DNA from: Spirogloea muscicola
Lineage: Eukaryota > Streptophyta > Zygnematophyceae > Spirogloeales > Spirogloeaceae
Direction of reading: 5' to 3'
Assembly: GCA_009602725.1 (NCBI GenBank)
Contig: WELB01000223.1
Coordinates: 107,123-130,984, forward strand
DNA: 23,862 bases
Made by a program: the position numbers and the translations under genes. The notes beneath the pieces were generated by a model that saw only the letters and a list, made by a program, of their open reading frames with translations, made no database searches and was not told where the DNA came from. Positions within the stretch are counted from its first letter, which is position 1. Each line of letters starts with the position of its first letter. Positions 1-18,757 of the stretch are shown here, one piece after another.

Positions 1-58
1 GCCGCCACCCCTCTTAAACCCCGGGCCGCCGCCGGCGCCGTCGCCGGCGGCGCCCGCC

Positions 59-3000
59 ATGGGGTCCGCGGCGGCGTGCAGGCCCGACGCCACGCCGCCC
101 GCCGTCGCCCCACCCGCGCAGTCTCGGCGCCGCCTTCGGAGCCGGAGTCCCGAACTTCCCCCGGCCAAGTTCGCGTGGGCGAAGCGGTTTCTCACCCTCG
201 CCGCCTTCCATGCCGCCACCACGCCACCTCCGCCGCAGCCCCCCCTTCTTCCGCCGTCGCCACCCTCGCCTGCGAAGCCCCCGCGCGCGCTGTGCCCCAC
301 CTGCTCGCGGGGTTCCGCAACTCCCCATGGTGTCTCCATGCATCGGCGACACTGCCAGGGGCATGCCAGCCCCACCGGCACTCCGCCCGCAGCGGCCGTC
401 GCAGCTTGCAGCCCCATCGTCCTGGCCCTGGCATCTACTCAGGCGCAGCATTCCACGGAGCATTCCACGGAGGCAACTACCCAATCGCCTCCCGCCCGAG
501 AGAAGTGTCGGGCACAAGCGTTATCGCCTCCACCCCTGAGATGCGAGGGGACCCACGAGGTGGCCACGCTCCTCCATCCTCAGGGTACCATGCCCCATGT
601 GCTCGGCCCTGACGTCCCTGAGTGTACTTCTCCGGCGACAGTGGTGCAGCAGCCGCTACCGCCCGCCGAGCCGTTGTCACCACAGCCGCCGACGTCCCCT
701 CCGCCCCCACCTCCTCCGACGCCGCCTTCCCGACCATCCGCCATCCCGCCTCTCGAGCCGCCCAGCCTTCCACAGTCGGCGCCATCGACGCCCCCCCGGT
801 CTCCGCTGCCTCCACCCCCGCCGAGCGAGCCGGCTCCACCGCCGTCGCCTCCACCTCTCTCGCCCGACCCGCCTCGGTGCCAGCTTTGCCAGAGGACCTT
901 CACCACGCGGTCCGGCCGGTCCAACCACCAGCGAACTTGCACGTGCAACAACAACCGTGCGGAGCAGGCGCGGAGCGCAGCGGCGGCGGGTGGTCGTCGG
1001 GGCAGACCAGGCAGGCCTCCCGCGCCGTCCCCGCGTCCCCGCGCTCCTCCCACGCCTCACAACTGGCAGTGGCTGGCCGGCCTCGACCTGGCCGCAGTTC
1101 ACCGCCAGGCGGCCCTGCCGCTCCTACGCCACGTTCCACGCTGGGCGCGCCCACACCTCCGCCGCGCTCTCCGCCCGGTGACATAGCGGATCGGTGCGCA
1201 CCACAGAGACGAGGCGGCGTGGAAGTTGTTCATCCTCTTCCCCCGGCTGTTGCTCGGGCGGCTCTCTCTCGACAGCCGCAAGCAGGGCCAGCAGCCCCTC
1301 TTGGAACGCGTCCAGTTGTTCGAGAGCGGGCACTGGGAGGAGCTCCTTGCGAGGCACGACACAGCCGTGGCGGCGTCCGCGGCCAACCGTGGTGGTCGAG
1401 GGGCTCCACACGACCGGGCCGCCATTGTCCGCAGGGCTCTTCGCTACGGCCACGCGGGCGAGCTCTCTCGGGCTGTGCAGGCCCTGGACGATGCGATGCT
1501 GGCGCCGACCAATGCGGCAACCCGGGCAGCTCTGGACTCCCTCCACCCCCCGTCCAGCTCCCCCCTGCCACCGTGGTTGGCCGCGTTCGCCCCGCCGGAG
1601 GAGGTGGTCTTGGAAGCCGACGCCCTCAAGAAGGCTCTCCAGACCAGCCGTCGGGTAGCCGCCGGCGGCCCCTCCCGCATGCTAAGTGAGCACCTGCGGG
1701 AGATCTTCCTCGAGGGTGAGGCGACAGACTTCAACGCGCTGCTGCAGATCTGCCAACACATGGCCCGAGACAATGTGCCGGCCAGCATCCGCGGCGTACT
1801 GTGCACCGGCACGCTGCTCGCTCTCGACAAGCCGAGCGGGGTAGTCAGGCCCATTGCCATTGGGGAGGTCCTGTGCCGCCTGGTGAGCCGCGTACTCTGG
1901 CAGCAGCATGCGGGGCCGGCGCAGGTGCACATGGCGCCACACCAGTACGGCGCGGGGCTGCGGAGTGGGGGCGAGGCCGTTGTCCGTGGGGTTCGTGCGA
2001 CCTTGGACCAGCACCCGGGGTGGCTGGTGCTGGCCATTGACGTGAAGAATGCCTTCAACACTGTGGAGCGCGCCAGTATCGCGGAGGAGCTCCGGGCATC
2101 CTTCCCCTCCCTGGTACCCTTTTTCCGCTTGGAGTACGGTCAGCCCAGCGACCTCCTCTGGCGGACAGGGGGGGATTAAGTGGAGGTCCTGCAGTCCCAA
2201 GCGGGCACGCGGCAAGGGGACCCCCTCGCCGGCTTCCACTTTGCGCTCGCTCACCACCGGGCTCTGCAGGCAACTGCCGCGGCACACCCAGGAGTCCTGC
2301 TCGCCTCCTTCGCGGACGACACCACCATAGTCGGCCCTCCGGAAGACGTGGCGGCGGCCTTCATCACCTTTAAGCTGCAGCTGGCCACCCTCGGCCTGTC
2401 CACACGGGCGTCAAAGTGCGCGGCTTGGTCTCCCTGCGGCCTCCCACCCACCCTGACGCTGTCCACCTGCTGCCAGACTCAGGCAGATGGCTTCACCCTG
2501 CTGGGGTTCCCCATCGGCGCGTCGTCCTTCGTGGAGGGGCAGCTGCAAGCCCACCTTGTGGAGCATCTTCAGTTCAGCCTGCGGCCCGGCTTCCCGAGCT
2601 GGACGACATGCAGCTGTCGTTGGCCATGTTGACCAAGGCCATTGGGCAGCGGCCCCAGTACTTGACGCGGGCCACTCCGCCGTCCCCAGGGGCGTTGGCG
2701 GCGTACGCGGATTTTGATGCAGGCATGGTGGCGAGCTTGGCGGCCCTGGTCCGCCACCAGGGCTTCCTCCAGTTGCCAGCCGCTATCCAACAGGCGGCGC
2801 TACCATTCAGCCTAGGAGGTCTCGGTCTGCGCTCGCTCGCCCGTTCTTGCCAGGCTGCATACCTCGGCAGCTGGGCGTAGACTGCCGCCTCCGTGGCCCA
2901 GCGCTTCATGGTCCACGGCCGGCGTGCACTGGAGCAGGCGGTGGTGGAGGTCGACATGGGCCCGCTGCCGTTCCAGGTGTCGCTTCGCTCCGCCCACCAG

Positions 3001-3935
3001 GAGCTGCTCGCGGCGCACCCGGACCTGGCAGGCCAGGCGGTCCCCTTCGCACACCTCGCGCACACCGCTGACCTGCGCGTCCAAGCGCGCTTCGCGGCTG
3101 TGGTCGACAAGGCCGCCTACACCACCGCCGTGCTGCAGCTCCCCGAGGCCGACTTGCGCGGGCGCGCGAGACTTAATCGGCCTCCTCCCGGGGGGCAGCG
3201 GCATGGCTTTAGGCCCTTCCCATCAATGACGCCCTCGCTCTCCCCGATGAGGTATTTCGCACTGCCGTCCACCGTCTCCTGGGGCTGCCGCCTCCATGTC
3301 TCCAGGGCGTGCGTCAGTGTGTATGCGGCGAGCGAGGGGCCGAGTCTGGGGAGCTGGCCGATCATGTTCTCCGCTGCGCCCACGGCGGCGAGCGGACAAC
3401 GACCCACGACCGCCTCCATGATGCGATGCATGGCATCCTGTTGGAGGCTGGCTTCTCCGTGGCAGCGGAACACTCCGGCATCATGCCGATCCAGGAAAGG
3501 GCCGACGGTCTCCACGCCCGGCGTGTAGACCTGGTGGCCACCCCAAAGGCCGGCGGGCCATGTCTTCTCCTGGACGTGGTGACCACCGATGCATACGAGC
3601 TCAAGTACGCAGTCCATCCGCGGGAAGACGAGTTCTTCCCGTTGGCATTTGCCACCCATGAGGCGCTGGGCGCTCAGTGGCTCGAGCTGCTCACCCAGCT
3701 CGCCCGCAACACCATCGCCCGTTGCGTCCATGGGGAGCCGGTAGAGTTTCCTGCAGCCGGGTCGCTGGCGCAAGTGTATCGTATGCGTCTGGCAGTCTCG
3801 CTGCAGAGGTTTATGGCCCGGGCGCTGCACCTTCGTGCCGGCAGAGCCGTCGCTGCTGCCTCTGGCCCTGGCCAGGGGACCCACTTCCACGAGCCTAGCA
3901 TCTCCGACCTGCGGCTGCTGAGCAGAGGTTACTGA
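59..3935 (+). pseudogene. LINE polyprotein: zinc fingers, reverse transcriptase, REL endonuclease (disrupted)
   Basis: In life this protein would nick target DNA and prime reverse transcription of its own RNA. From the ATG at 59 (context CGCCATGG), two fingers of the form C-x2-C-x12-H-x3-C lie at residues 79-99 and 274-294, separated by a Ser/Pro-rich stretch. RT motifs: A, LAIDVKNAFNTV, with Asp codon 2039-2041; B, GTRQGDPL, near 2204-2224; C, FADDTT, 2309-2320. The zinc knuckle CVCG...HVLRC is at 3318-3377. The REL core is RRVDLVAT (Asp codon 3528-3530) then LLLDVV (Asp codon 3573-3575). The protein ends LLSRGY with TGA at 3933-3935. The frame is broken by TAG at 1184-1186, TAA at 2177-2179, a net -1/+2 shift near 2560-2590, TAG at 2878-2880, another shift near 3165-3200, and TAG at 3210-3212. 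Similarity to the family continues across every break, so this is one decayed gene. Confidence 0.9.
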
Positions 3936-4030
3936 GTAATTTAGGGTCGTAGCTGCTTTGTTTCTCTGTGTGCTTGCTATTCTTAGCGCTTCCCCTGGCC
4001 CCCTTCTCGTACTCTGTTCATTCTTTTTTT

Positions 4031-4049
4031 GGGCTGGCTTTTCCAGCCC
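4031..4049 (+). other. LINE 3' UTR hairpin, copy 1
   Basis: A perfect 7-bp stem, GGGCTGG / CCAGCCC, with loop CTTTT, lies 95 nt after the LINE stop codon. A T-rich TTCATTCTTTTTTT box precedes it and CTCAATGGGCGAGCAC follows. Both flanks recur at other copies. Confidence 0.8.
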
Positions 4050-4141
4050 CTATTCTCAATGGGCGAGCACTTTCTCCTTTTATACCACCTTCCTACCTGA
4101 GATATCCGGCCAGGGTTAGCCCTGCTCGGCTCCGCCCAGCG

Positions 4142-4188
4142 GCCCTCTAGCCGACGCTACGAGGACGCTACGCGCCTGGGCATGACAC
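4142..4188 (+). repeat. Conserved LINE 3'-terminal block with GACGCTAC direct repeat
   Basis: This 47-bp block matches 17151-17197 at 44 of 47 positions by eye, in the same orientation and likewise downstream of a LINE stop. It starts GCCCTCTAGC, contains two copies of GACGCTAC (4153-4160 and 4164-4171), and ends GGGCATGACAC. Sequence similarity between the two copies stops at its right edge, which is why it is taken as the 3' end of the element. Confidence 0.75.
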
Positions 4189-4389
4189 CAGCACGAAAGG
4201 ATAATTACACAGCACGATCAGCGGCTCTTTTAGATAGCCACTCACTACGCCTTGGCCAAACGACCACAAATCGAAAGTGCTCGCTTGTACTTTGCCTTTT
4301 TCTTTCACTAGCCTAAGCAAAAAAAGTTGTAAAACAGGATAAGCAGAAAAATGCGAAATCAGTAGAAAGTTCTCCCAACAGGGGACAAT

Positions 4390-4645
4390 GGCTGTAAAAG
4401 GTGTAAACAAGGTCTGAAGGGCCGGAAAGTGTTAAGTGACACAGCTGACTGAAGAAGCGGCCCTTCCTAAGGGGACGAGAGCTGTGAAAAGCTAGCCCAC
4501 AAAACAGTAGACAATTTACAGGATTCAACAGCCGTATACCAAGCAGGAGAATGAGTGTGTATTGAGAGATTGAGGGCCTGTGTGGCCAAGTACAAAGGCA
4601 AGCACATTGACAAATGTACGTGACCTGCTGCTAAACTTGACCCTC
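4390..4645 (-). mobile_element. 3' UTR of inverted LINE fragment (hairpin copy 2 at 4479-4498)
   Basis: Read on the - strand, this is the UTR following a LINE stop at 4646-4648. It shares the early UTR sequence GCAGCAGGTCACGTACAT and GTGCTTGCC with the copies near 6300, 7450, 18700 and 19880. The hairpin on the - strand is GGGCT / AGCTC, with one pair being a G.U wobble in the sense RNA. The tail CCCCTTAGGAAGGGCCGC matches the tail of the copy at 18430-18455, so the two belong to one subfamily. Confidence 0.75.
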
Positions 4646-4949
4646 TCAGTAACCACGAGTCAGCACATAGAGGTTGCTAAACTAATGCCCGAATACCGGA
4701 CGCCAATTGACAAGCTCTTGAGTTACCAGCTAAGGCTCGATCAGCTTTCCGATGCGACGCATGAGCCTGAGCTCGCTGCAGACAAGCTGACACTCGGCGT
4801 CGCAAGAATGACAAGTAGGCTGTCGGCATGCCCATATGAGCTGGAAGCATATCCTCACGTCGAGCATATTCCAGACTTGCAATATTCTCCAGTAAGGTAT
4901 GAAAGCGAGGACCCATGCAGCGGAAAGTGTCAAATGTAAATTCCGACAC
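4646..4949 (-). pseudogene. LINE endonuclease C-terminal fragment
   Basis: The - strand frame beginning at 4949 contains AYLSFLRRRVSACLQRAQAH followed by RKADRALA. This aligns with VYRMRLAVSLQR and LRAGRAVAAAS near the end of the LINE protein at 59-3935. After a frame change, the last codons read VLTRGY and then TGA at 4646-4648, the conserved family C-terminus. It continues the endonuclease fragment at 5128-5753; the two are separated by the minisatellite at 4970-5085. It is only a remnant and cannot encode a working enzyme. Confidence 0.75.
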
Positions 4950-4969
4950 TCAGGAATTGAGAAATAGAT

Positions 4970-5085
4970 GGCGAATCTTGTTGATTGGCTCGATAGCGAA
5001 TCTTGTTGATGGCACGATGAGCTTTCGGCGAATTTTGTCATTTTGTTGATGGCGAATCTTGTTATCTTGTTGATGGCGCGCTTCG
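4970..5085. repeat. Minisatellite, GGCGAATCTTGTT-type unit
   Basis: Units begin GGCGAATCTTGTT or a close variant at 4970, 4996 (GCGAATC...), 5027 and 5051, with a degenerate start at 5075. The units at 5027-5050 and 5051-5074 are each exactly 24 bp and differ at a few positions. Earlier units are longer (about 26 and 31 bp) because of added bases after the shared GTTGAT. The array sits inside a LINE endonuclease remnant. Confidence 0.75.
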
Positions 5086-5127
5086 AATTGCCGCCGGTAG
5101 GAGGTGATTGCTGCGGGGGTAATCAGA

Positions 5128-5753
5128 TTAGTATCGGAGCTTTCTCTGCTCAGCACCTCCCACTGCGTGGCTAGCGATCTGCAATGATGCGGAACTCTTG
5201 TATGCCTCCGTCACATCCATGTCAACCAAGGCTCGTGGGCCTCCGCCAGATTGTACACCCACAATGTCCAGGGTGCGACAGTGATGGCGTCCCTGAGAAT
5301 CCGTGGTGATGGGCATTATATTGCTCACTTCCACAACGGCGCAGTAGCTGGCGTCGCGCATCAGGTCCGCCAGGGCGTCCAGTGGGAAATTATGGACGCC
5401 CACCACCTCAGGGCCTGTAGGACACCGCAGCATGTGGGTGGCAAGGTCTCCGCCCTCCGCACGGAAGCCGCATTCATACTGAGTTACTCCAATCAGGCAG
5501 GTCGGGGGCAGGCCTAGCAACAGCTGGAGAAGTGTCCGATATGCCTCGGGGCTGATTTTGAACGCGTTGTGGATGACGTGCGTTGTGAGCCAGTCCGTTG
5601 CCCCAGGTGTTGCGAGCGATGTGAGACGTGCCAGACTCCTACTGACATCTGGCATTCTCCTCAATGTCTTGCGGCGCTCATCCTCAACTGCTGCAACGAG
5701 TCTGTCCTGTGCCCCTTTGTCTGATGCTTGGGCAAGCGCTGAGAAGGGAAGGA
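5128..5753 (-). pseudogene. LINE zinc-knuckle and REL endonuclease fragment
   Basis: On the - strand an open frame can be followed from about 5742 to the TAA at 5128-5130. It contains ALAQASDKGAQDRLVAAVED, the conserved PGATDWLTTHVIHNAF, LLGLPP, a knuckle YECGF...HMLRC, and the REL core CRTLDIVGVQSGGGPRALVD. The matching stretch of the full-length copy reads AAAWL...ALPINDALALP, then LLGLPPP, CVCG...HVLRC and RRVDLVATPKAGG. It is divergent enough to be a different subfamily. The upstream end is marked by a pyrimidine run (TTCCTTCCCTTCTCAG) just beside the end of another LINE remnant (stop at 5776). The rest of the domain lies beyond the minisatellite at 4646-4949. Confidence 0.82.
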
Positions 5754-5775
5754 AGAGACCACTAAGGTTGGCTGC

Positions 5776-5998
5776 TTAGTAACCCCTAGTAAGCAGCCGC
5801 ACGTTGATAAGTAAGACGCCAATAGGACTCGCCCCGCCTGTACTCTGAGGCACTAGCCAGGGCATGACCAGCACGCATATGCAAGGTGTAACGAATGCTG
5901 CGCATTCCCAAGCCCGGGCTGCGGGTGGAGCAAGAAAATTGGGGCAGCATTGAGATGGGACTGCAACAGTCAAATGGTAACGACTTCTGCAGGGGCAA
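5776..5998 (-). pseudogene. LINE C-terminal fragment ending RLLTRGY
   Basis: The - strand reads HMRAGHALASASEYRRGE, matching the family pattern LRAGRAVAAASG, and after a frame change ends NVRLLTRGY with TAA at 5776-5778. On the - strand its end abuts the start of the 5128-5753 fragment within about 25 nt, so the two are head to tail. The block 5776-5850, including CGCCCCGCCTGTACT, recurs at 18553-18650. Confidence 0.65.
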
Positions 5999-6007
5999 AG
6001 TCCAGGG

Positions 6008-6370
6008 GTCAGGGGGTCCGAGGGTCGGTGACGTAGGAGCTCATCCAAAGGGGGCGAAGGGTGTGAAAAGTCAGCTCCAAAGTAATGGACAAGGTCCAAG
6101 GAGCGACAGGCCCTAACGAGGCAGAGAAAACCACACAGGTATGCAAGATACCACAGCGAAGGGGAATCATCCACCCCTTCCCCTTCCCACGTTGGAAGAC
6201 ATCACCACCCATCCAATCCAGCATTTCCCCTACACAGGAGAAATGGAGTGTGTACCGAGTGATGGAGGGCCTGAAAGGCCAAGTGTTAAGGCAAGCACAT
6301 TGACAGATGTATATGTCGTGCTGCTAAGCTGACTCGCTCACTAATCACGAGTCAGCACGTAGAGGTCGCT
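6008..6370 (-). mobile_element. 5'-truncated LINE 3' end (last codons plus 3' UTR)
   Basis: On the - strand the sequence reads GTGCTGACTCGTGATTAG (VLTRD, TAG at 6341-6343) and then the shared early UTR with GTGCTTGCC. It includes TTGTCCATTACTTT and a degenerate hairpin near 6061-6082 whose arms (GGAGCTG / CACACCC) no longer pair well. The tail CCCCCTTTGGATGAGC matches the UTR subfamily at 18430. It lies upstream of, and head to tail with, the 5776-5998 remnant. Confidence 0.65.
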
Positions 6371-6779
6371 ACACGGGGAGGGGAGCGGACCGGCACGTAA
6401 GAGTTCCTCTGGAACGCCATGTCTGGCGTCTTCCTGAGGCAGGCTACACCGTGGCCATGGAGAACTTCAACATCATGCCCCTGAAACCTGGGGCAGAGGG
6501 CCGTCTCCACACGCATCGCCAGCCGATCTCGTCGCTTCGCACGGACGGTGGAGACCTCGCTACGCACATGTGGCACTGGCCCACTAGCTTTTGAATGCCC
6601 ACCAAAAGGAAGTGGTCAACATCTATGACGACCTCCGGGTTGCCTTGGCGGGCTTGCTGTGTGACGCCTTCTACCGCACAGCTTTGAAAGTGAAACAACA
6701 TCATGCCAATCACCACGGACGCCCAGAGACGCCTTCAAAGTTCTGCTCCCTAGACACTCTGGACGTAAATGCTGGCTGA
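6371..6779 (+). pseudogene. Chimeric LINE endonuclease fragment (copy 1 of a duplicated composite)
   Basis: Pieces in shifting frames read NAMSGVFL, then AGYTVAMENFNIMPLKPGAE, matching HDAMHGILLEAGF and HSGIMP of the full-length LINE. These are followed by GGDLATHM, then NIMPITTDAQRR and LDTLDVNAG, which instead match the 5128-5753 subfamily (GGDLATHMLRC, NIMPITTDSQGR, LDIVGVQSGG). The zinc-knuckle region of the second subfamily thus follows the endonuclease start of the first, an order no intact element has. The same chimera, with the same inverted neighbour on its left, occurs at 18758-19170. Confidence 0.72.
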
Positions 6780-6807
6780 GGACAAATGTGCCTGTGTTTA
6801 TATTATG

Positions 6808-7071
6808 TAGGCATATCTTTTGTTGCTGCGCCGTCAAATGCGAACCTCTTTGCAGCCGGGTCTGCCAGGAGCGACGCCCAGCTTCAACGCCGCCGGTTCG
6901 CTCGCACAAGTCTTCCGAATGCGCTTGGCGGTATCGTTTGAACGTTCTTTTGCCCACGCCGTCCACTCGCGAGCAGGCTGTGCTATGGCCGCCGCCTCTG
7001 GGTCTCGGCGGAGTGCCTCTTTCCCTGCAGCGAGCTATTCTGACCTGATGTTGCTCACTCGCGGATACTGA
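6808..7071 (+). pseudogene. LINE endonuclease C-terminal fragment ending LMLLTRGY
   Basis: The frame at 6820-7071 contains GSLAQVFRMRLAVSFERSF, HSRAGCAMAAASGS and SYSDLMLLTRGY, then TGA at 7069-7071. It aligns along its whole length with GSLAQVYRMRLAVSLQRF...LRAGRAVAAASGP...SDLRLLSRGY of the copy at 59-3935. Only the last 80 or so residues remain, the usual result of incomplete reverse transcription. The first 35 bases (GCATATCT...CTTTGCAG) also recur at 19690-19737. Confidence 0.85.
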
Positions 7072-7167
7072 GCCTCCCTCTGCATCGTCTTGTGTTTTGT
7101 CGTGTTTTGTAGTGTAGTCCTTTTTCGGCACCTCTTTCTTTGGCTTTGAACATTGTCCATTCTTTTT

Positions 7168-7186
7168 GGGTTGGCTTTGCCAGCCC
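7168..7186 (+). other. LINE 3' UTR hairpin, copy 3
   Basis: GGGTTGGC-TTT-GCCAGCCC forms an 8-bp stem in which one C-G pair is replaced by a U.G wobble in the sense RNA. Confidence 0.78.
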
Positions 7187-7258
7187 CTCTTCTCAATGGG
7201 CGAGCACCTTCTTTTTCGGCACCTCTCTCTTTGGCTTTGGACATCATCCATTCTTTTT

Positions 7259-7277
7259 GGGCTGGCTTTGCCAGCTC
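7259..7277 (+). other. LINE 3' UTR hairpin, copy 4
   Basis: GGGCTGGC-TTT-GCCAGCTC forms an 8-bp stem with one G.U wobble on the sense strand. The flanks are the same as at copy 3. Confidence 0.78.
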
Positions 7278-7330
7278 CTCTTCTCTCTGGGCGAGCACGT
7301 TCTTCTTGTAGGCGCTAAGCATCCGAATGT

Positions 7331-7690
7331 GCACAAGAAAGCTGGTCGAGCTTCTGGTTGGTGGCAGATGTACTTAGAAATAGCCATCCCTTATTCAGGC
7401 ATCAATCAGCCACTTTTACTAGCTTACGAGGTATTACTGAGCGGGTCGCCTTAGCAGCAGGTAATATACATCTGTCAGTGTGCTTGCGGGTATATTTGGT
7501 TACTCAGGCCCTCCTGTATTACAGCGTACAAGCGTTGCATTCCTTGCTTTTTCGTCGTCTTTTTTTGCCATCCCGGACCTCTTCTTCTACCGTTGGCCCC
7601 TTCAAAAGTCTGCATACCTGTGGCTTTTCACAGCCCTTGCCCCCATTGGGAGAGCACTTTTTTTCTGTACCCATGTTGACCAACGACTTT
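7331..7690 (+). mobile_element. 5'-truncated LINE 3' end with variant hairpin
   Basis: The first 137 bp (GGTCGAGCTTCTGG... to the early UTR GCAGCAGGTAATATACAT) closely match 19759-19894. The conserved end TTACGAGGTATTACTGAG is a shifted version of the L-T-R-G-Y-stop codons. At 7618-7633 the usual stem is replaced by CTGTG / CACAG around GGCTTTT, and the tail CCCATTGGGAGAGCAC follows. The fragment is directly downstream of, and in the same orientation as, the remnant at 6808-7320. Confidence 0.68.
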
Positions 7691-7869
7691 CCACCCCTAG
7701 CAAAGGGAGCATGTGATCCGGCGTCAGCCAGCAGCTGCGGGCGTCGAGGCTTGTCATAGTCGAGTGTAATGCACTCGTCAACGAGAAGGCGCGCGGTGCG
7801 CATGAAATGAAATGGTGGCCGATTTGAGCTGGTGGCCGAGAGAGGAAGTGGGTCTCTCAATGGGAGCAA

Positions 7870-7892
7870 GGGCTGCGATAGTAAGCCAGCCC
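7870..7892 (-). other. LINE 3' UTR hairpin, copy 5
   Basis: Sense on the - strand: GGGCTG / CAGCCC, a perfect 6-bp stem with an 11-nt loop. The tail CTCCCATTGAGAGACCCAC resembles that of the copy at 7618-7633. Confidence 0.65.
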
Positions 7893-7940
7893 GACAATGA
7901 TTGACAAGGGTCGAAAGACATCGCGGCCAGATTGACTGGT

Positions 7941-7959
7941 GGCTGGGGAAAGGCCAGCC
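7941..7959 (-). other. LINE 3' UTR hairpin, copy 6
   Basis: Sense on the - strand: GGCTGG / CCAGCC around CCTTTCC. The tail CACCAGTCAATCTGGCCGC is shared with the copy at 16931-16948. Confidence 0.7.
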
Positions 7960-8048
7960 CAAAGGAATGGACAAGGTCTGAAGGAGCCGGAGTGCGAAAG
8001 AACCGAGAGAGGCCCCCCAAAAGAATGAGCTCGCTCATAGAAGATAGG

Positions 8049-8066
8049 GGCTGGCAGAAGCCAGCC
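8049..8066 (-). other. LINE 3' UTR hairpin, copy 7
   Basis: Sense on the - strand: GGCTGGC-TTCT-GCCAGCC, a perfect 7-bp stem preceded by TTGTCCATTCTTTTT. Confidence 0.75.
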
Positions 8067-8611
8067 TAAAAAGAATGGACAAATACCAAAGAGCCACAAC
8101 AGGTGCCGAAAAGAAGAGAAACACACAGCTAGGCATCTAGACAACTAGACATGACGAAAGCACAGGAAGCTCAATACCCGCGGGTGAGCAACATCAGGTC
8201 AGAGTAGCTCGAAGCTGGATTAGATGCAGGCAGACGAGACCCGGAAGCAGCAACAATAGCACGGCCCAAAAGCAAATGGACTTTGCAGAGGCCCAGGCTT
8301 GGGACCTGCGGAATCTCGCTTGACTCCAGGGAGTTCCACGCGGCGGCTAGAGCACGACGTGGCGCGGAGGCGGGCGGGCTGCCCTGCGAGGAGGGGCGTC
8401 CCGGACTTTCTGTTGACCACGATAAGCTACTTGCAGCATCGCCATGTTGTATCGACGGTTGCTGCGGCTCCTGGCAGCTCCTCGGAGATCGGCCTTCCTC
8501 GGCCGATGCGGCAGATCCGACGGCACAGGCTGGCCGGCTAGTGCGCAGCTCCCGCGCCTCCGAGACTGTGGCCGAGACACTGCGAGAGCCGCCTCCTGGG
8601 CGCGCGCGGCC

Positions 8612-9721
8612 ATGGCGGCCATGGCGGCGGCGGCGGCTGCGGTGCTCTTGGCTCTGTCGGCCGCAATGGCGGACGGCGCTCGGGAGGCGGCTTCGCCTGG
8701 GGGCGGCGCCTGCCTGCCGGGCTTCGCGCCAGGGCCGCGCTCAGGGACGTGCCTGCTGGCGGCGCCCGGCCCGGCGTCCTTTGGCCAGGCCGAGGCGGAG
8801 TGCCAGGTCTCCCCATCCCCTGCCGTCGCTGTTGAGCCGCTCGAGCTCTCGCCTCGCCGTCGTCGCCACCGTTGGTGCCACCGTTGACGCCCTGCCCCGT
8901 CTGCATCCACAGCGTCGTGGGGGCCGGCTGGCGACGCTCCTGGGGCGCTTGGCGCTCGAGGACGTGGCGGAGCTGTGCCGAGCGTTACCCGGCGGCACTG
9001 GTGACGGCGGGAGCAGCGAATGCCTCGTGGGTGCCACGCGTGGCCTACAGCCAGGTGCGCAGCTCACTGTATATGAATACGCTATTTTCGTCGGCCCGCG
9101 CTGCAGAGTCGCCCGATTTGATCTCTGCTACTTACGTCAACAAGCGCGCCTCTGTGGCTTTCCTTTCGGCAGACCCGCCATGGAGGTGGACGGAGCCCTG
9201 CGCGGCCTTCTCCACGGGCCTGTGGCTGGCCACTACGACGCCGTCGGCAGCCTCTCCCTCGGCAACTGGTGAGCTCCACTGCACACAACTTGGCGCCCAC
9301 TCGCTCCTGCGCTGTGGCTTGCGCCGCAGAGGAACGATCCCTCTGCTGAGGACTGTGGTGGCTGGCATGCAGTGCGGCCACTGAGATGGTGGCAGCAGGA
9401 CGAGCTGCAGCAGGCAGCCGCAGCAGCAGCAAAGGCAGTGGGCCGCTGTGTTCATGTGGTGCCAAAGGCCGGTAGGGCCCACGCACCCTGGTCCCAGTGG
9501 TGTGCGCCTCGACAGCACCATTCATCTGCTCGCAGTCGGCTTGCAGTGTCACGCTGTCATTTGCCGTCAGTTCCACCTCTCAGGGCCTTTTGAAGGTGCT
9601 GCTTGGCGCCGGCCACGCCCACAGCGCTGATAGTGACGGCCAGCGGCGGCACTTGAGAGTGGAGTCGAAGACGTCAAAGACAAAAATGAAGACAAAGAAG
9701 ACTAAGAAGAAGTCGAAGTAA
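8612..9721 (+). CDS. Secreted C-type lectin-domain protein (multi-exon; one inferred frameshift)
   Basis: Start chosen at 8612 (GCGGCCATGG); it gives a signal peptide MAAMAAAAAAVLLALSAAMA, while an in-frame ATG at 8444 would hide it. Inferred exons are 8612-8806, 8913-9054, 9107-9268 and 9373-9721. All junctions are GT-AG and phase-consistent. Seen in order: CLPGF...GTC (long-form N-terminal pair), FGQAEAEC, RRGGRLATLL...LEDVAELC, CLVGATRGL, PPWRWTE, RCVHVVPKAGR, TLVPVVCASTAPFIC. This is the C-type lectin pattern with all four core cysteines. The calcium-site EPN/WND signatures are not obvious, so sugar binding is uncertain. One base appears to be missing near 9475-9477 (GGG), between KAGR and the last block. 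The intron 9055-9106 (52 bp) is unusually short; a donor at 9031 is an alternative. The tail is Lys-rich (KTKKTKKKSK) with TAA at 9719-9721. The LRR exons begin 22 bp later, so this may be the N-terminal part of one larger gene. Confidence 0.7.
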
Positions 9722-9743
9722 AAGCCGAGCGGCACGAAGCACG

Positions 9744-12700
9744 ATGGAAGACCGCGGCACAGCTGCAATCACTGGCCTGGACCTCAACGGCTTTGGCCTT
9801 CATGGCTATGTTCCGCAGTTCCTCCGCAACCTCCCGGTGAGCACCGGGAGCTCTCCTCTCAGCATGCATATCTGCAACTCTGCTGCAGCGTGGATGAGCA
9901 GTGCCTTGCAGAGACTTCGCAGCCTGGCAAGTTTGAGCTTGTTGGTGTGACCTGGCGGCTTGCATGACCTCAATCTCCACCAGAAAGACCGGAGGATAAG
10001 GAAAGAGCAGAAAGGGCAGAAGGTACAGAAATTGAAGATGGCTGGAGGGGAGACGGATGGGGGCATGCAACAGAAGGACATCATCAGCTGTGTCCATTTT
10101 TGAACATATCGATGTGGCTCTGATGGCTCCTCTGCTTCACCATTGTGCGCAGGACTTGGGCTTCATCCATGCAAGCCAGAGCTTCTTCGTCGGCGCACTG
10201 CCAGATCTAAGCAGACTGAGTCTGCTCGCTGAAATTGACTTCTCGCTTAACCTCCTGTCGGGCCCGCTGCCGCTGTGGGTCACAGCACTGCCTGCCCTGC
10301 GTTTCCTGGACCTGCGCCACAACAGCTTCACAGGCGTGCTTCCACCATCGCTGTTCAGCACGCGGCTGGACGTGCTCGCGGTGAACAACAATGCCCTCAA
10401 GGAGCCAATCCCGACCAATCTGGGCTCCCTCCCGGTCTCGCTCGCCGTTCTCGCCCAAAACGCGCTCGGCGGGCTGATTCCCGCCAGCATCGGGCAGCTC
10501 GCGCCGACGTTGTCGGAGCTTGTGCTGCTCGACAACGGCCTCATTGGTGGCCTCCCCGCGACCATCACCCAGCTCCACTCCACGCTTGTACTCAACTTCG
10601 CTGACAACCGACTCAATGGCGGCCTCCCCCTCGACATCGGCAATCTCACAAGCCTCGTTCAGGTAAATGGCCAACGCGTTGCGTTCCTCATTGCAAGCAT
10701 CTCCCCCTTGAGCAGCTTTGACGGGACTCGCAGCGTGGCCTGCAGCTGGACATTTCGAGCAACCGCTTGGCAGGCAACATCACCACCTCGGAGGTGTTCT
10801 TTTTTCCCAAACTGCAGGTACAGCTCCTACTCATGTGGCCCTCTGCCAAGCATTTTAACATATCAAATTGACCAACTCTATCTCTTCCTAGACCTAGCAA
10901 CATGAGCGAGCTGCTTGGGGCTAGTCATTTCTGTTCCTTGGCTGTTATGGCCAAAGACCATGACGAGTGCGGCTGCTGCTTCTTGACTTGGTGCTCCTTC
11001 ATGTCGCGTGTTGAGCTTAAGAATTCCTTCAATCTTGCAGCTATTCAACTATAGCGAAAACTTCTTTGTAGGCAAGCCGCCGGCCAATACAACAATTGAT
11101 CTTATCATTGGCGAGGATTGCAGCAGTGGGCACTGCAAGGCATTTGTCCTACCTCCTGGTAAAGTGGCACACGGTCTAGGCCTCTCTATGGCTTTCACAG
11201 TAGGTACAGGTTGATGGTCAAGAGCTGCTCAAGTGTTACTTCAGATGATTTGAAGGGGTCTCAAAGATAAGGTTGTCAGCTCTGTAAGGTGTTATTTAAT
11301 GCCAAGTTTTTCAGTGGAGTGGCTAACCTCATCTAACGTGCTGTCGTTTGCTGCCACAGTGGGTGGACTATTGCAACCTCCACCCCCGCTGCTATCGCCA
11401 TCTCCACCACCATCGCTCTCTCCACGAGCACCATTGATATCACCCTCGCCAACAACATCACCCCCACTGTTGTCGCCTATGTCCAGTCCGCCGCCACTGC
11501 CATCGCTACCAGCCCTACCTCCACCTCCGTCGCCTCTCATCGGAGCATCTCCAGCCTCTCCGCCTCCGCCTCCAGCAGCCCCATCTTTTGTGTCGCCGCC
11601 GCCGTCACCGTCACCGGAGCTCAGCCCGCCTTTGCTGTCGCCATTGGCACCATTGCCAGCGTCGCCTGAGTTATTGCCAACGCCACCCTACTCCCCACTA
11701 TCCCCGCCACCACTGATCCACCCGTCGCCTTCAATGCTACCTCTTCCACCGCCTCCACCCTCACCAAAAGTGCCGCCTCCGGAGTCGCTTTCTCCGCCTC
11801 CTTTGCCGCCCTTTTTATCCCCGCTGCCACCTTCAATTTCTCCACCAATTCTGGCCCCTCCGTCAATGTCTCCTCCTCCATCTCCTCCGCTGTCGCCGCT
11901 GCCACCATCGTCAATCTCGCCACCATTCCTGCCGCCGCTAACCCAATCGGCGCCTCCGCTGCCGTCGCCCCCAGTGATGCTTTCTCCTCCGACGCCTCCC
12001 CCACCATCTCTGCCAGAATCACCGCCACCACAACAGCCTGCCCTGCAGCCACCTTTTCCACCACCATTCTTGGTGCCACCCCCTCTACCTTTGCTACCGC
12101 CACCTTCCCCTGCTTTGCCGCCGCCGCCGCCACCACCGCCGCCGCCTCCATCACCGCTGCTGCCACCGCCAGCAGTCTTCCCATCGCCAGCGCCTCCCCC
12201 ACCACAGAATACACCCGGCCCTTTGCTCGACCAACTAACAATCCTTGGAGCTCAAGGCGGTGCTCATCGGTGCATCGGAGCAAGTCGCCACCTGGAATAC
12301 GTCCAGTCCCTGCGATGGCTGTACCCCTGGCACAGAAGCATCGTGCGCCTGGTCTGGAGTGAATTGTGATGACCAGGCCTTTGTAATAAGAATCAAGCTT
12401 GATCCCTTTTTCGATTTATATGATTTTTATACGTATGACATTGGCAACATTCCGGCCAGCCTTGGCAGCCTCGCCACCCTTCAGCAGCTGTCGCTGCCTC
12501 AACAAGGCTTGTATGGCCCCATCCCTCCGGAGCTCGGCAACCTCACCAATCTGCAATTCTTGTGAGGATCTATCCATATTCCATGGCGGCATACGAATGA
12601 GTGATTGCCCATCCTTTGCTCCTTCCTCTCACCTTAGCATTCACAGCTTGGGCTTAGGCTTGATAATTTGTTCAGGTTCATTGGGAGGGTCCCAGGCTTG

Positions 12701-15076
12701 GGCAATAGGCAGTAGTGTTGCTTATAATCCAGGATAGATTCAGTTATTCAGTTGGGGCATTCAGTCAATGGCCGGTTCACGAAGTAGGGCTCGGGCCATT
12801 ACTTTTCCTTAGGCTAGTGAAGTAATCAAGGGATAATGTTTATCTAGGGATTATGTCGGTCAGAAAGCCATGGCTTACTTCATTGGTGCCAATGTGGGCT
12901 TACTTAAACGGCATCAATGTTGACCTTTTCAATTCCGTTGAGTGTTGATGCGCTTCCAAGTCCCTTATGCTCGCCAATCTTGTTTTGCCTGTGGCTTGGG
13001 ACCTGAGCAACAATAATCTCACAGGCGAGATTCCAGCGTCTCTGGGGAATCTGAAGGTGCTGACAACCCTGTCCTTGCATAATACTCTGCTGCAGGGGCC
13101 CATTCCTGAAGCGCTGGGCACGCTGCCGCTCCTTGGCAACCTCGACTTGTCAAATAATTATTTATCTGGCAACATCCAAGTCGTCCTCGGTCTCCAATCG
13201 CTGACGGAGCTCAACGTCAGTAACAACCTCTTCTCTGGCGAAATTGTGGGCCCCCAGCCCGGGCTGCGACAGCTGAATATTTTCAGCAATTACTTCATGG
13301 GTGCAGCCACTCAATTCAGCTCTGACACATTCAATTGCTTCGGTGTGAGCAAGGGTGTGTCTGTTCCCGGACAACGAGATTGGCAAGGTTGCTTTGCCTT
13401 CTATGAGCTCGCAGCACTCCCGCCGACACCCACAGCCAGCCTCCTCGCTCTCAAGGCTGAGCTTGGTGACCCTTTTGAGTTGAATTGGGATGCAAGCAAC
13501 GCCGTTGACCCCTGCGCTGGCTGCCCTGATAACTGCATCCTTGCCCGGCTCAATTGTGACTACTTTGGGCACGTTACATCTCTTGATCTGAGCTTGCTAA
13601 TTTACTTAAATGACGTTGCTCGCCCATTCCCAATGACATTGACAAATCTTACAACCCTACAAGTGCTTATCATTTCGAATAGTGGCCTCTACGGGTCCAT
13701 CCTAGCATTTGTCACATCCAGATTGCTCCTCCTCGGAGACCTTCAGCTTAACAGCAACAAGCTCAGCGGACCTCTACCAACAGACATAGGCAATCTGGAC
13801 ATGCTGATCTACCTGGACCTCAGTTACAATCTGCTGAGCGGGGTCCTCCCAGATTCTTTTGCTGATTGTGTCAGCTTGTCTTCCCTTCATCTCAGTAACA
13901 ACCAGCTGAGCGGGCCTGTCCCGGCGGTCATTGGCAACCTGAACACATTGTTCGACCTGGATTTGAGTTACAACTTTCTGAGTGGGGCGCTCCCTGGGAC
14001 ATTGATGGGCGTTACTTATCTCAGTCTTGAGAACAATTTCCTCGACGGGCCCATCCCCTCTTTTGTTTTTGATGTCGATCGCTCATTTGCGATCATTGAC
14101 CTAAGCAACAACGAGCTCACTGGGCCAATAACCGACTCGGATGTTCGCATCCACGTCGACCTATCAGGGAATTACTTGACCGGCCCCATTCCAACGTTCC
14201 TTGATTCCACCGCTGACAACTGCTTGGGAGAGCTAAGTGCATCTGCAGATCGGACTGGTCAACGGTCCTTTGCGACTTGCACACAGTTCTTCGTGCGCGC
14301 CACGATGGCGGTGAGCTTGGCTGCACCATTGCTCGACCTCAAGGCGGTGCTTGGTGACCCATCATCATTGGATACTTGGAACTCCACTACACCTTGCGAT
14401 GGATGTTTGACTGGCAGCTGCACTTGGGCTGGCGTCCAGTGCGACAACCACAATCACATTACCCAGCTCCACATCACTATGGTGCAAGGTGCCCTCCATA
14501 GCATCCCGGCATCACTGACATCGCTCACATCACTTGGGGAGCTCAAGTTGCAATCCAACATGTTTGGTGAGGCCATCCCGGCCGACATTGGCAACCTCTT
14601 TCTCCTCACTACCCTCGATCTGAGCATCAACTTGCTGGTGGGTGCAATTCCGGATTCCATTTCCAACATGACACTTTTTGTCAGCTTTGGACCTCTCCAA
14701 CAACCAACTATTGGGATCATTGCCCGACAGCTTGGCAACCCTGTCGCTCTTGCAATCGCTTTCCTTGGAGACAAACGCCGTGACAGGTTCCATCCCCCAG
14801 ACCTATGAACAGCTTACCAGTCTGGTCTCTGTGAACCTAGCCCAGAATCAGTTGACAGGTGGGTTACCTCTGGGCTTCTCAACTTTGCCCAACTTGAGAT
14901 CGCTCAATGTGACGGGTAACTTCCTCACCAGCAGCCCTTCTGGAGCCACAGCGGCGAATGTCATAGACATCAGCTTCAATTGTATCAATGTGACAGTGGA
15001 TAAAATGCCAGCAGATCAAAGGCCATATAGCGATTGCTCTGGCTATCTCATTGCTCCATCTCCTAGCCCGCTGTAA
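9744..15076 (+). CDS. Leucine-rich repeat protein with proline-rich hinge and repeated LRR modules
   Basis: Inferred exons are 9744-9836, 10153-10662, 10746-10817, 11041-11158, 11360-12561 and about 12999-15076. The first five fit GT-AG introns with matching phases. Exon 10746-10817 is exactly 72 bp, one 24-residue repeat (LDISSNRLAGNI...). Repeats follow the plant-type L-x2-L-x2-L-x-L-x2-N-x-L-x-G-x-I-P pattern (for example DLSNNNLTGEIPASLGNLK). A Ser/Pro-rich segment at about 11370-12230 separates the first LRR block from the rest. Cys-rich N-caps (LDLKAVLGDPSSLDTWN...PCDGC...CTWAGVQC) recur at about 12245, 13440 and 14335. Capping pairs C...GQR...C close each module. Frame breaks are an extra T at 12245-12246 and an extra T in the run 14675-14679. 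The stop is TAA at 15074-15076. No kinase or clear membrane segment follows. The likely role is an extracellular or wall-associated binding protein. ATG 9744 gives no signal peptide, which supports joining to the upstream lectin exons. Confidence 0.85.
11370..12230 (+). other. Proline/serine-rich low-complexity hinge of the LRR protein
   Basis: About 285 codons consist mostly of Pro with Ser, Leu and Ala, in motifs such as SPPP, LSPLPP and PSPPP, ending in runs of eight or more prolines near 12115-12150. Such segments are typical of algal and plant hydroxyproline-rich extracellular proteins. A long open frame on the opposite strand is a by-product of this composition. The segment sits between two LRR solenoids and probably forms a rigid, glycosylated spacer. 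Confidence 0.85.
12562..12998 (+). other. Inferred LRR-gene intron with aberrant acceptor
   Basis: The donor is good (TT|GTGAGG at 12561/12562). The 24-residue repeat phase requires the next exon to start at 12999, giving LQFL joined to DLSNNNL. The two bases before it (12997-12998) are TG, not AG. The only nearby acceptor, CCAAG|TCC at 12960, is in the wrong phase. Confidence 0.5.
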
Positions 15077-15949
15077 CAAATATATTACACCTCTGCAGGT
15101 CATCAACATTCCGTGCTCCATCTGCTTGCACTTGCATTTTGTTAAAATCGTGAATACGTGGGCTGAGTGTTGAGGTCGTCGAGCCATTTTTGATGAGCAT
15201 GCCATGAGGTTCTGAGTGCAGCCGCTTGGGAGTGCTGTTGCACATGCAGCAACAGACACTGTACTTGCAACTCATTTGTCTTGTCGTGTTTGTAGCTCCT
15301 GCAGAGCTTATTTCCGAGGTTGCTTGCCTGCTTCTGGACGCGCACGGCAAAGCGCTCTTGCAACCAATTGCTCTGGAGGGCTTCTGCAGTAAGATGCTTT
15401 GGTGATGATCTTCACCAGTTTGGGGCTTGCTGGCGAAATGCACTTAGCTAGAGTCGAAATGGATGCCTCCCTCCTACTTACTGAGCAGCATTTTGAATCG
15501 TTACAAAGTTAAAACCTTCCCACCAGTGAATCTGTCGGCAACAAAGGACTGTTGGTCACCCATTCACCAAAACAAGAGGTGCTGGGTCCACGCGCTTCAG
15601 AGCATTATTGGGTAGTAAGTGCTAGCATCATTCTTTTGTGAGCGTACCTAACATTTCAAGCTTGCTGTGTTGCAATTGCCATCCGTGCGCCACATAAGGG
15701 ACTGGCAGTTGTCCCCGCTGTGTCACTGCATAGCGCTATAAGTCGTGAGTATAGCAAAGCTTGTCACTCTGCGATTAGGAATATGTGCCTACTCTGACCC
15801 AAGTGTACGAATGTCGTGCCTGCCCGTATAGCGCCCACTACGCGTCGTCATCCACACCTGGAACTCCACCTACAGACCAGAACTCTGCCTGACTAGCAGC
15901 AGCCTGCCCTGAATGCCCTTACTACCAGGTCAGCAGGCATGCAAAGAAT
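15077..15949. other. 3' flank of the LRR gene, no gene seen
   Basis: There is no convincing open frame on either strand and no LINE similarity. A TGTAA pentamer, the usual poly(A) signal of volvocine green algae, overlaps the LRR stop codon, but its distance from any cleavage site is unknown. Composition is more balanced than in the flanking LINE-rich DNA. Confidence 0.5.
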
Positions 15950-16158
15950 GTGGCAAGCATCACCACACACAAACAAGTGACACCTGTCCTCCCTCACACT
16001 CGCGTGCGCCTCCAGCGCCGCTGCGTCCTCATCCCCGCCGGGGGATCTTTCACCGCCCGCTTCGGCCCCCTGGCCACCCTGGCCTGGAGCGCTGGCCTAC
16101 TCGGGCCGCGCGCCGAACCCTTGCCGGCTAGCTACTCGGATCTGCATCTCCTGTCTGT
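15950..16158 (+). pseudogene. LINE C-terminal remnant ending SYSDLHLLS
   Basis: The frame reads TRVRLQRR and then, at 16116-16146, ASYSDLHLLS, matching SYSDLMLLTRGY of the copies at 7071 and 8171. The last codons are missing because the sequence switches at about 16158 into the middle of another endonuclease copy, so two fragments are joined head to tail. Confidence 0.6.
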
Positions 16159-16709
16159 TTATCCGGCGATGGAGGTGTCTGGGATCATGCCAATCTCCTC
16201 AAGGCGCGGCAAGCCATACGTGCGGCGTCTGGACGTGGTCGCTACCCCGCGGGGCGGTGGGCCTCGTCTGCTCTTGGACGTGGTTACTGATCGACGCATA
16301 CAAGGCTGGCGCACCAACGTCAACCGTGTCTGGCTGGGCCACGTCCAGCGCGGAGCGCAAGAAGGAGCGGCACTACCATGATCATCCTCGAGGGGACCAT
16401 CTTTACCCGTGTGCCATGGACATCTATGGAGGCTACGGCGTGAAATGGTCCTCCCTGATCCAGCATCTGGCCCGGCTGGTTGATGCGCGTCGTCGAAGTC
16501 GGGGGGGCAGCTTGGGCCACTCCAGCATTTCGCAGGCCTTAGTTGCATATTATAGAATGCGGCTCTCGCTTAGTTTGCAGCGCTCGCAAGCATTGGCTCT
16601 TCATCAACGTGCAGGGCGCGCTCTAAGTCAGGCCTCCGGCTTTCGTGGCGGCGCTCCAGCTCCCCAAGTTAGCTTGTCAGATTTGTTTGTGCTCACCCGT
16701 GGGTACTAA
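16159..16709 (+). pseudogene. LINE REL endonuclease and C-terminus, one frameshift
   Basis: The first frame reads MEVSGIMPISSRRGK, VRRLDVVATPRGGGPRLLLD and VVTD, the catalytic core of the REL domain. It then changes frame at about 16288, where an extra GATC-like 4 bp appears in CTGATCGACGC. The second frame gives DAYKAG, KWSSLIQHLARLV, RMRLSLSLQRSQALALHQRA, GRALSQASGF and LSDLFVLTRGY with TAA at 16707-16709. Similarity to the copy at 59-3935 runs throughout. This is the second best preserved endonuclease in the window. Confidence 0.85.
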
Positions 16710-16930
16710 TGTCATCTTAGGTACCTTAGATTAGGTCTCCGTATTATGTAGCATTGTTTAGTCTGCACTCGACTCTGCCTGAACAATGTATTGGCTTGAA
16801 TTGGCCTCCCTTTCAATTCATGCGCCCCGCGCGCCTTCTCTCTGTCTAAAGGTTACTGAGCGTTCCCTGGCTGATGTCTTAGTCCTAGTCGTTCGCACTC
16901 AAGCTCCCTCAGACCTTGTCCATTCTTTTG

Positions 16931-16948
16931 GGCTGGCCTTTCCCAGCC
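16931..16948 (+). other. LINE 3' UTR hairpin, copy 8
   Basis: GGCTGG / CCAGCC form a 6-bp stem around CCTTTC. The subfamily tail CACCAGTCAATCTGGCCGC is shared with the inverted copy at 7941-7959. Confidence 0.7.
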
Positions 16949-17150
16949 ACCAGTCAATCTGGCCGCCTTTCTCTTGCCGGCGGCTGCGGCGGCGGCCGCG
17001 CTAGATCGCTCTCCAACAGGGGGACTTGCGGAGAAATAGCCTCTCTCCGGCGTCCGATCTCATCAAGGCCCAACCCCGCAACGGGGGTCTAGGCAATAGG
17101 TACAGACACTTAAGCGTCCGCCGCCCCAAGGCTCTCCGGCCCGCCTGACT

Positions 17151-17197
17151 GCCCTCTAGCCGACGCTACAAAGACGCTACGCGCCCGGGCATGACAC
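17151..17197 (+). repeat. Conserved LINE 3'-terminal block, second copy
   Basis: It matches 4142-4188 at 44 of 47 positions, including the paired GACGCTAC units and the final GGGCATGACAC. It lies 442 bp after a LINE stop codon, against 207 bp in the first copy. Confidence 0.75.
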
Positions 17198-18399
17198 GAA
17201 GGTCTACATCACGACTTTCCAAGGTGAAGCAAGATGTGGTCAGTTACACGATCAAAGGCACTTTGGCCACTTGGATGCTACACATACCGGCAAGTCCAAT
17301 TAAGAACAACACTCGAGATGATACTGCCAACGATATGTATTCTTTTCAGGACTGTAGTCATTGCTTGATTGCCTCTACAGCTCGCAACAATTTCAATTAC
17401 ACGTACTTGAAATGGTGGTCGACAGATTCCCAACAATAGCAGCAGTTAGGCAGGGCTTTGTCAATCACCCCTTCATCAAGCCTGCTACTTGTCCAGTATC
17501 TCAACAAGGCCGGAAAGGGCCTGAAGAGGATGACAGGCAAATTGGGAGTAGTGCAATTGACATGTGCAGGCCGTATGCTGTTGGTCAGCAGACATATAAG
17601 GCCGATACGGGGCTTGGCGAAACTATCCTCTGCAGCTGCAAAATCAAGTATAGGTCATCCGTCGAGGCCGTGGAAGAACAGCTTGGCATTTGTCCAGGCA
17701 CGCTCGCCACTCGTCAGGCGAGCAATCGCAGAAGTGGTTTTCTTCCAAGACAATGTGAGGCAAGCAGTTGTGGCTCGAGAGAACGTGGTGAGAAGCGCCG
17801 GACGTTTACAGCAGACAGCAAGTAGATGACCGCTGTGAAGGCTCCATTGGTGGAAGACAGGCGCTCGCGCTCGAGGCCATCAGCCTCGTGATTCTGATGC
17901 GCCGCCATCCTGGCCAGTGTCAGCGTCCGCGTGGTGGCGCTTGGCACGACCCAAGCCGGCCCTTTTGTGGGTCAGGCACTGATACCGTTGTGTGACGCTG
18001 TTGGCGTGCGCAGGTCAACCCTACAGGGCCCCTGGTCCTCCCACTGGGGGCACCCATGCCGCCTGTGCCTGGCTGGGCGACAAATGACTGCACCTCGAGC
18101 TGCTCAGAGGCTGTTGCAGACTACTGCTTTAGCATCCCCAGCATTCACCAATTCTTGACTTCGTTCCGGACTGTGATTCAAATCGTGTGAAATGTCTCCC
18201 AACCACTAATCTCGTATTCTGAAGCCATCCATCACAAGCTCGCGTAAGTCATCATTCAACATTTAGGCTATCTGTTTGTGCATGTTCCTAAATCTTCGCT
18301 CTTCACTTCTATTCACAATGTGTTGCGTTGCCGGCCACGTGGACTCTGACGTGTCACCTGAATTACACACATATCTGCCTTATCGGCGTTACTTGGCAG
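17198..18399. other. Unassigned region between LINE clusters
   Basis: No LINE similarity is seen. A + strand open frame at 17458-17829 (123 codons) contains RPWKNSLAFVQARSPLVRR and AEVVFFQDNVRQAVVAREN, which look somewhat protein-like. It has no recognisable domain, and frames on the opposite strand look equally plausible, so it is not called as a gene. Confidence 0.4.
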
Positions 18400-18757
18400 T
18401 CGACACTGTGTGGCATGACAAGTGGCTGAAGAAGCGGCCCTTCCAAAGGGGGTGAGGGCTGTGAAAAGCCAGCCCGCAAATGAGTGAAATAACATAAGAA
18501 GCCGGAAGCCTTAGACCAAGCAAGAGAGCAGAATGCCACTAAGGAAGACTGCTCAGTAACCCCTAGCAAAGGTCAGCCGCATCTGGTAGTAAGGGTCAGC
18601 CGCATGTGGATAGGTAAGAAGCTAAAAGTAGTCGCCCCGCCTGTACTGTGTGTGTTCAGTGATGGGGGGCCTGAGTGGCCAAGTAGGAAGGCAAGCACAT
18701 GGCAGATGTGCATCACCTGCTACTAAGGTGACCCGCTCAGTAGCCACGAGTCAGCAC
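18400..18757 (-). mobile_element. Two head-to-tail LINE 3' ends (hairpin copy 9 at 18456-18475)
   Basis: On the - strand, VLTRGY with TGA at 18737-18739 is followed by the shared early UTR. A second C-terminus, RLTFARGY with TGA at 18553-18555, lies 184 bp further on. The second UTR carries a hairpin with GGGCTG / CAGCCC and the tail CCCCCTTTGGAAGGGCCGC. The 18553-18650 stretch repeats 5776-5850. Confidence 0.7.
18456..18475 (-). other. LINE 3' UTR hairpin, copy 9
   Basis: Sense on the - strand: GGGCTG-GCTTTTCA-CAGCCC, a perfect 6-bp stem. Confidence 0.7.

Follow-up and report, generated by a model that had tools for sequence, protein, structure and literature searches.

Why does one short hairpin recur near the 3' ends of so many long interspersed nuclear elements (LINEs) in the streptophyte Spirogloea muscicola? 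The question is raised by a GC-rich stretch of 23,862 nucleotides with many LINE fragments (hereafter the window), which covers bases 107,123-130,984 of contig 223 (WELB01000223.1) in a genome of 153 Mb and 471 contigs (GCA_009602725.1). A first-pass annotation listed ten copies of the stem, placed them in LINE 3' untranslated regions (UTRs), and argued from G.U wobbles for selection on RNA structure, probably as the recognition element for target-primed reverse transcription (TPRT). The hairpin observation is real, and ordinary in kind; the evidence for selection is over-interpreted. The hairpins belong to a 3'-terminal module of about 60 nt (box, hairpin, GAGC motif and TTC-rich tail) of LINEs with a single open reading frame (ORF). 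Recognition in TPRT is still its best reading by position and precedent, although not on the G.U evidence that had been offered.

Inverted-repeat stems, some of them decayed, lie within 2 bases of all ten annotated coordinates and on the annotated strands. A strict 19-nt hairpin pattern (up to 3 mismatches) matches the window 3 times versus a shuffle mean of 0.10, and 0 of 100 shuffles reach 3. Across the genome, a 35-mer that spans box and hairpin is matched at least 1,949 times at up to 3 mismatches, and its reversed form 0 times. Three patterns that leave the stem unspecified give at least 1,025 matches (reversed control 1), at least 1,535 (control 0) and 38 (control 0); they fix parts of the box and tail, and are thus uninformative on any outer helix. 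An older hairpin type gives 568 matches (control 0). The pattern sets overlap, and all repeat counts are lower bounds. Against these window and genome counts it is very improbable that the stems are chance palindromes in GC-rich repeats, an explanation for which only the low information of single short stems speaks.

The module follows about 60-85 nt of other UTR sequence. It begins with the box TTGTCCATTC or TGTTCATTC and continues with GGGCTGG-loop-CCAGCCC, about 10 nt, ATGGGCGAGC and a TTC-rich end, so ordered that the hairpin lies about 75-105 nt past the ORF stop and about 20-30 nt before the 3' end. Family consensuses have no poly(A) and end TTC-rich, and truncated copies without an upstream ORF retain module 3' ends. 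Rfam gave no match at the gathering threshold, and a literature search, with subscription papers mostly outside its reach, found no earlier description of the module.

The location of the hairpin was read from 120 UTRs that were fetched by match to three LINE C-termini, blind to the hairpin. Two masked copies of the 80 from families Q1 (C-terminus LLSRGY) and Q3 (LLTRGY) were dropped, and 37 of the 39 usable Q1 copies and 35 of 39 in Q3 have the hairpin no further than 150 nt past the stop, with up to one change per arm (strict form in 32 and 26). The median stop-to-hairpin distance is 76 nt in Q1 and 90 nt in Q3. Column identity in Q1 falls from over 90% to about 30% within about 15 columns past the GAGC motif, and the fall past the module in Q3 is similar, if less sharp (13 of the 120 UTRs were dropped here). 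The element's 3' end lies at this drop.

At least three LINE types (Q1, Q3 and B) have the module in common, while the remainder of the 3' UTR differs. Between Q1 and Q3, whose proteins are 64% identical, 49 of 58 module bases agree (0.82; shuffle maximum 0.72), and the upstream UTR matches in 41 of 51 aligned pairs (0.54 of its length; shuffle maximum 0.58). Comparisons with type B agree: the module is alike, and the remaining UTR does not exceed the best shuffles in likeness. Such a contrast between a conserved module and a remaining UTR at chance level supports a function.

By position and by analogy with other LINEs, this function is probably that of a recognition handle for the LINE reverse transcriptase. 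Two systems provide the precedent: a 43-nt core with two stems from the R2 3' UTR serves TPRT as well as the whole UTR (PMC10499050), and zebrafish LINE proteins bind their cognate 3' stem-loops (PMC4176376). The LINE protein would bind the module on its own RNA, presumably needing the stem, and reverse transcription would start at the adjacent TTC-rich tail from nicked target DNA, such that new copies would carry the module; genomic copies would then decay largely neutrally. The hairpin could instead serve 3'-end formation, termination or stability of the LINE RNA, a role suggested by its position just before the 3' end and by TTC-rich ends without poly(A) in the family consensuses. However, an end common to several families and kept in truncated copies fits template selection at least equally well, and I regard such a role as improbable.

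What weighs against a recognition handle is, first, the pattern of change within the stem. On a tree of 61 UTRs, built from non-stem columns after 35 of 96 UTRs were dropped as upstream non-homologous or rearranged, 14 wobble-making transitions stand against 12 A.C-making ones. The first-pass annotation had named an equal frequency of the two as refuting its proposal, and this split departs neither from one half (p 0.85) nor from the 0.593 predicted by the rates at unpaired sites (p 0.56), where C>T runs at 2.07 and G>A at 1.32 per site. Internal branches carry 2 wobble-making events and 1 mismatch event. Because 40 UTRs were chosen from listed matches to show stem variants, the tree rates are not population rates. 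In UTRs from the protein match only, inner-pair changes keep pairing in 10 of 27 cases in Q3 and 4 of 12 in Q1, where the mutation spectrum leads one to expect 10.7 and 4.0. The other outcome that the annotation had named as refuting, a lack of covariation across copies, came about as well: stem-agnostic sets of 60, 55 and 36 sequences contain 0, 0 and 2 double changes, versus shuffle means of 0.84, 0.15 and 1.21. Finally, in Q3, where the sample includes some rearranged copies, the stem changes at 2.38 per site and the remaining UTR at 1.89 (p 0.21); the Q1 stem is slower than its remaining UTR (0.86 versus 1.67, p 0.03).

The simpler counts point the same way. Among the matches listed (96 placed of the first 100 for the pattern with at least 1,025; 4 unplaced), the wobble C4>T, which is that of 7168, is found in 33 of 96, mostly in one young subfamily, and on the tree one event covers that subfamily and one more is independent. 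In the same 96, a C>T wobble at the third base of the 3' arm is shared by 9 rows, a G1-A mismatch is shared by 16, and the A.C change G3>A recurs in 4. In stem-agnostic sets, type B has 4 wobble versus 3 A.C changes (55 sequences; 1 of 56 rows dropped) and the old type 4 versus 9 (35 sequences; 2 of 37 dropped). Selection for G.U over A.C is rejected by the tree, listed-match, type-B/old-type and pairing-kept counts alike. A compensated GGTC/GACC stem was also sought, and has 0 exact genome matches and 3 with one change.

How, then, should the wobbles in the window be read? The one-base differences to which the first-pass annotation appealed, in 7168, 7259 and 4479(-), do make G.U pairs, but 4479(-) has an A.C as well: its pairs run GC, GU, GC, CG, UA and, sixth, AC, and the predicted fold of its 34-nt core differs from the hairpin stem. 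Copies within a family look much like neutrally decaying insertions, and with such near-neutral decay G.U changes in a few copies carry no selection signal; largely neutral decay would also account for the missing preference for G.U over A.C. The failed selection test is no proof that the stem lacks a use. The stem hardly varies between families and, like part of the loop, is conserved mainly as sequence, and covariation therefore cannot vote for it.

Second among the unfavourable points are the folds of two module types. Q1 (z -3.92), type A (-4.73) and type D (-4.71) fold far more stably than shuffles, which favours a function; types B (-0.93) and C (-1.57) fold no better than shuffles, and B is the commonest type by the stem-agnostic patterns. 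Perhaps, then, the module is kept as primary sequence, whether as a protein-binding motif or as a 3' end swapped between LINEs by template switching, with the inverted repeat incidental or weakly needed. The folds of B and C and the lack of excess double changes speak for this, as do a stem nearly invariant across families and loop parts that are conserved (in modules picked by stem resemblance). Yet the perfect inverted repeat of 7-8 base pairs in A, D and Q1, with z below -3.9, would be an odd accident, and I consider the explanation unlikely.

If the recognition handle is a paired RNA, its extent may exceed the hairpin. A two-stem shape is predicted for types A, D and Q1, in which the downstream AUGGGCGA is the pairing partner of the box UUGUCCAU. 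It is a tentative and rather doubtful suggestion that all 60 nt of the end form a single two-stem RNA, in which the helix of box and AUGGGCGA would close an internal loop around the GGGCUGG hairpin, the loop being family-specific and the whole a compact natural counterpart of the engineered 43-nt R2 tag. Over 138 cluster representatives (55 of them dropped in the module comparison), pairing of box and own tail was no better than with swapped tails (z +0.82; wider stretch +0.39), in a weak test whose representatives were chosen by the inner hairpin, include some chance look-alikes, and are in many cases old and decayed. Of the events that touch the outer helix, 8 of 12 in Q1 (4.5 expected; p 0.04, uncorrected over four tests and not counted as support) and 8 of 23 in Q3 (7.4 expected) leave it paired. 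A C-G to A-U replacement that seemed to separate types A and B was dropped, as it requires a one-base register shift.

Third, this genome also contains related LINEs that get by with different 3' ends. Families Q2 and E, with proteins 44-51% identical, are without the module, and their ends have z of -0.85 and -1.76, with 35 and 11 of 200 shuffles equally good. Q2, to which the window LINE ending at 16709 belongs, ends ...CGCGCGCCTTCTCT in 38 of 40 fetched copies (loose pattern); its conserved 3' end is ATGCGCCCCGCGCGCCTTCTCT, found in the window at 16794-16840, and the hairpin is present in 0 of the 40 copies in its strict form and in 3 in a loose one. The 3' end of family E reads CTTGGCCACACATGGCC...ACACGCATTT. 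Candidate hairpins of their own, GCGC-CCC-GCGC in Q2 and GGCCA-CACA-TGGCC in E, were set aside because the folds are not clearly better than shuffles.

Two further observations concern these families. The Q2 protein is about 51% identical to those of Q1 and Q3, yet its 3' end is wholly different within one genome. The E ends in the window (4555-4680 and 6248-6371 on the minus strand, 7408-7514 on the plus strand) vary by eye in both arms and loop (GGCC/GGCC, GGCCT/AGGCC, GGTT/GGCC), and may merit a covariation test.

What kind of LINE carries these ends? Four copies have one stop-to-stop ORF each, of 1,267-1,386 amino acids, and their proteins are 44-64% identical. Among the solved structures of the PDB, a profile of the four finds R2 retrotransposon proteins first (9nl2, E 1e-11) and LINE-1 ORF2 at 2.3e-4; phmmer with a single protein had no PDB match at E 0.1. 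The motifs C..C..H..C before the reverse transcriptase (RT) and C.C..H..C after it are invariant in all four proteins, and RVT_1 is present in the two scanned. An endonuclease-like pattern, R..D.V...GGPR...DVV, was recognized by eye, the structure model of the C-terminus being too poor for a fold check (predicted local distance difference test 46). R2-type LINEs are described with the order zinc finger, RT, zinc-knuckle, endonuclease (PMC5678591, PMC4640811), and with their order the present proteins agree, ending in the endonuclease-like region. The spacing of the knuckle departs: it is CX1CX12HX3C (invariant C815, C817, H830 and C834, numbered in the first sequence), and does not match the CX2-3CX7-8HX4C given for LINEs in PMC5678591.

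Table 1. LINE copies, 3' ends and hairpins in the window (positions from the first base of the window).
Positions	Strand	Feature	Basis or context
2..3935	+	LINE copy, family Q1, frame-broken	ORFs; RVT_1 on two pieces
3936..4078	+	3' UTR of the Q1 copy: box, hairpin, GGGCGAGCAC, TTC-rich end	right edge approximate
4031..4049	+	hairpin GGGCTGG-CTTTT-CCAGCCC	7 base pairs, without wobble
4479..4498	-	degenerate hairpin GGGCTA...CAGCTC	one G.U and one A.C; nested fragment
6060..6079	-	decayed copy	stem lost
7168..7186	+	hairpin GGGTTGGC-TTT-GCCAGCCC	3' UTR of Q3-type LINE fragment, stop codon end 7071
7259..7277	+	hairpin GGGCTGGC-TTT-GCCAGCTC, one wobble	tandem second 3' end, 91 nt after 7168
7618..7633	+	type-B fragment, alternative stem CTGTG/CACAG	5 base pairs
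7870..7892	-	type-B hairpin GGGCTG/CAGCCC	loop 11 nt
7940..7960	-	type-C hairpin GGCTGG/CCAGCC, then CCAGTCAATCTGG	
8047..8066	-	type-D hairpin AGGCTGGC-TTCT-GCCAGCCC	104 nt past LLTRGY stop codon at 8171
15981..16709	+	Q2-type LINE fragment	own 3' end 16794-16840, without hairpin
16930..16949	+	type-C hairpin	separate 3'-end fragment outside the Q2 LINE UTR
18456..18475	-	old-type hairpin GGGCTG/CAGCCC	upstream box decayed

The annotated placement in LINE 3' UTRs, on the sense strand, is upheld for the hairpin in general; of the ten copies, three (4031, 7168 and 8049) are in the UTR of the LINE to which they belong. The copy at 7259 is a tandem second end, and the other six, 7870(-), 7941(-), 7618(+), 4479(-), 16931(+) and 18456(-), lie in nested 3'-end fragments. 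Since Q2 has a different end of its own, the copy at 16931 is part of a separate fragment and not of the UTR of the LINE ending at 16709; 4479(-) lies by eye just beyond the E-type 3' end at 4555-4680 on the minus strand. The alternative stem proposed at 7618 is present but a singleton, matched in the genome once exactly and 3 times with one mismatch, and the loss of pairing reported near 6070 was confirmed. The Q1 copy at 2..3935 has a zinc-finger-like N-terminal part, RT, C-terminal zinc-knuckle, endonuclease-like region and the terminus LLSRGY; its relatives are 87-88% identical, some with open frames of 1,142-1,403 amino acids.

Such nesting looks commoner than uniform spread predicts. The flanks of 104 of the 120 UTRs (16 dropped; 9,374 bases) contain, by the same patterns and within about 100 nt of the LINE 3' end, 4 further modules on the same or opposite strand versus about 0.3 expected from genome counts, and insertion into TTC-rich tails is possible. 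As a separate observation, two loci (C2:907306-907445 and C5:1571744-1571883) have the same composite, in which a module with duplicated hairpin arm stands 30 nt from another module. There are also many older diverged 3' modules (GGGCTGGCCTTTCACAGCC types), with differing boxes and tails, which suggests a long history of this LINE group within one genome. Between the LINE clusters, positions 10036-15076 contain reading frames of leucine-rich-repeat and proline-rich type that probably belong to a host gene.

If the module is indeed a recognition handle, it would be a good test bed, short, abundant and natural, for the choice of RNA by R2-like LINE proteins, and a candidate compact template handle. 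As to method, structural selection cannot be read from wobbles in a few old copies; such changes have to be scored as tree events, with unpaired sites as the reference.

Three known systems invite comparison. Plant L1 elements (PMC3747384) also have a 3'-end hairpin, with CGAG 3' of the stem, here in GGGCGAGC, a likeness that is only a lead. They belong to the L1 clade, however, and are reported to show compensatory changes in a variable stem; the present stem is nearly invariant, and comparable compensatory changes were not found in it, double changes not exceeding shuffles. The 3' tails of UnaL2, ZfL2-1 and ZfL2-2 (PMC4176376; UnaL2 repeats in PMC3747384) likewise have a short stem-loop close to the 3' end and short repeats after it, with the stem common and the loop differing between families. 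Those are L2-clade elements for which binding was measured, whereas here I infer it. Of the features of stringent-type tails, a stem-loop near the 3' end is borne out by the folds of types A, D and Q1 (those of B and C are not significant), and a common tail is present in LINE types Q1, Q3 and B. The tag of Bombyx mori R2 (PMC10499050) differs in that R2 targets 28S ribosomal DNA and the present LINEs lie at many places; the outer stem here is without covariation support, and the likeness is one of layout, not of compared UTR sequence. In that layout, an R2-like single-ORF protein goes with a short RNA core near the 3' end, and the predicted folds of types A, D and Q1 have two stems.

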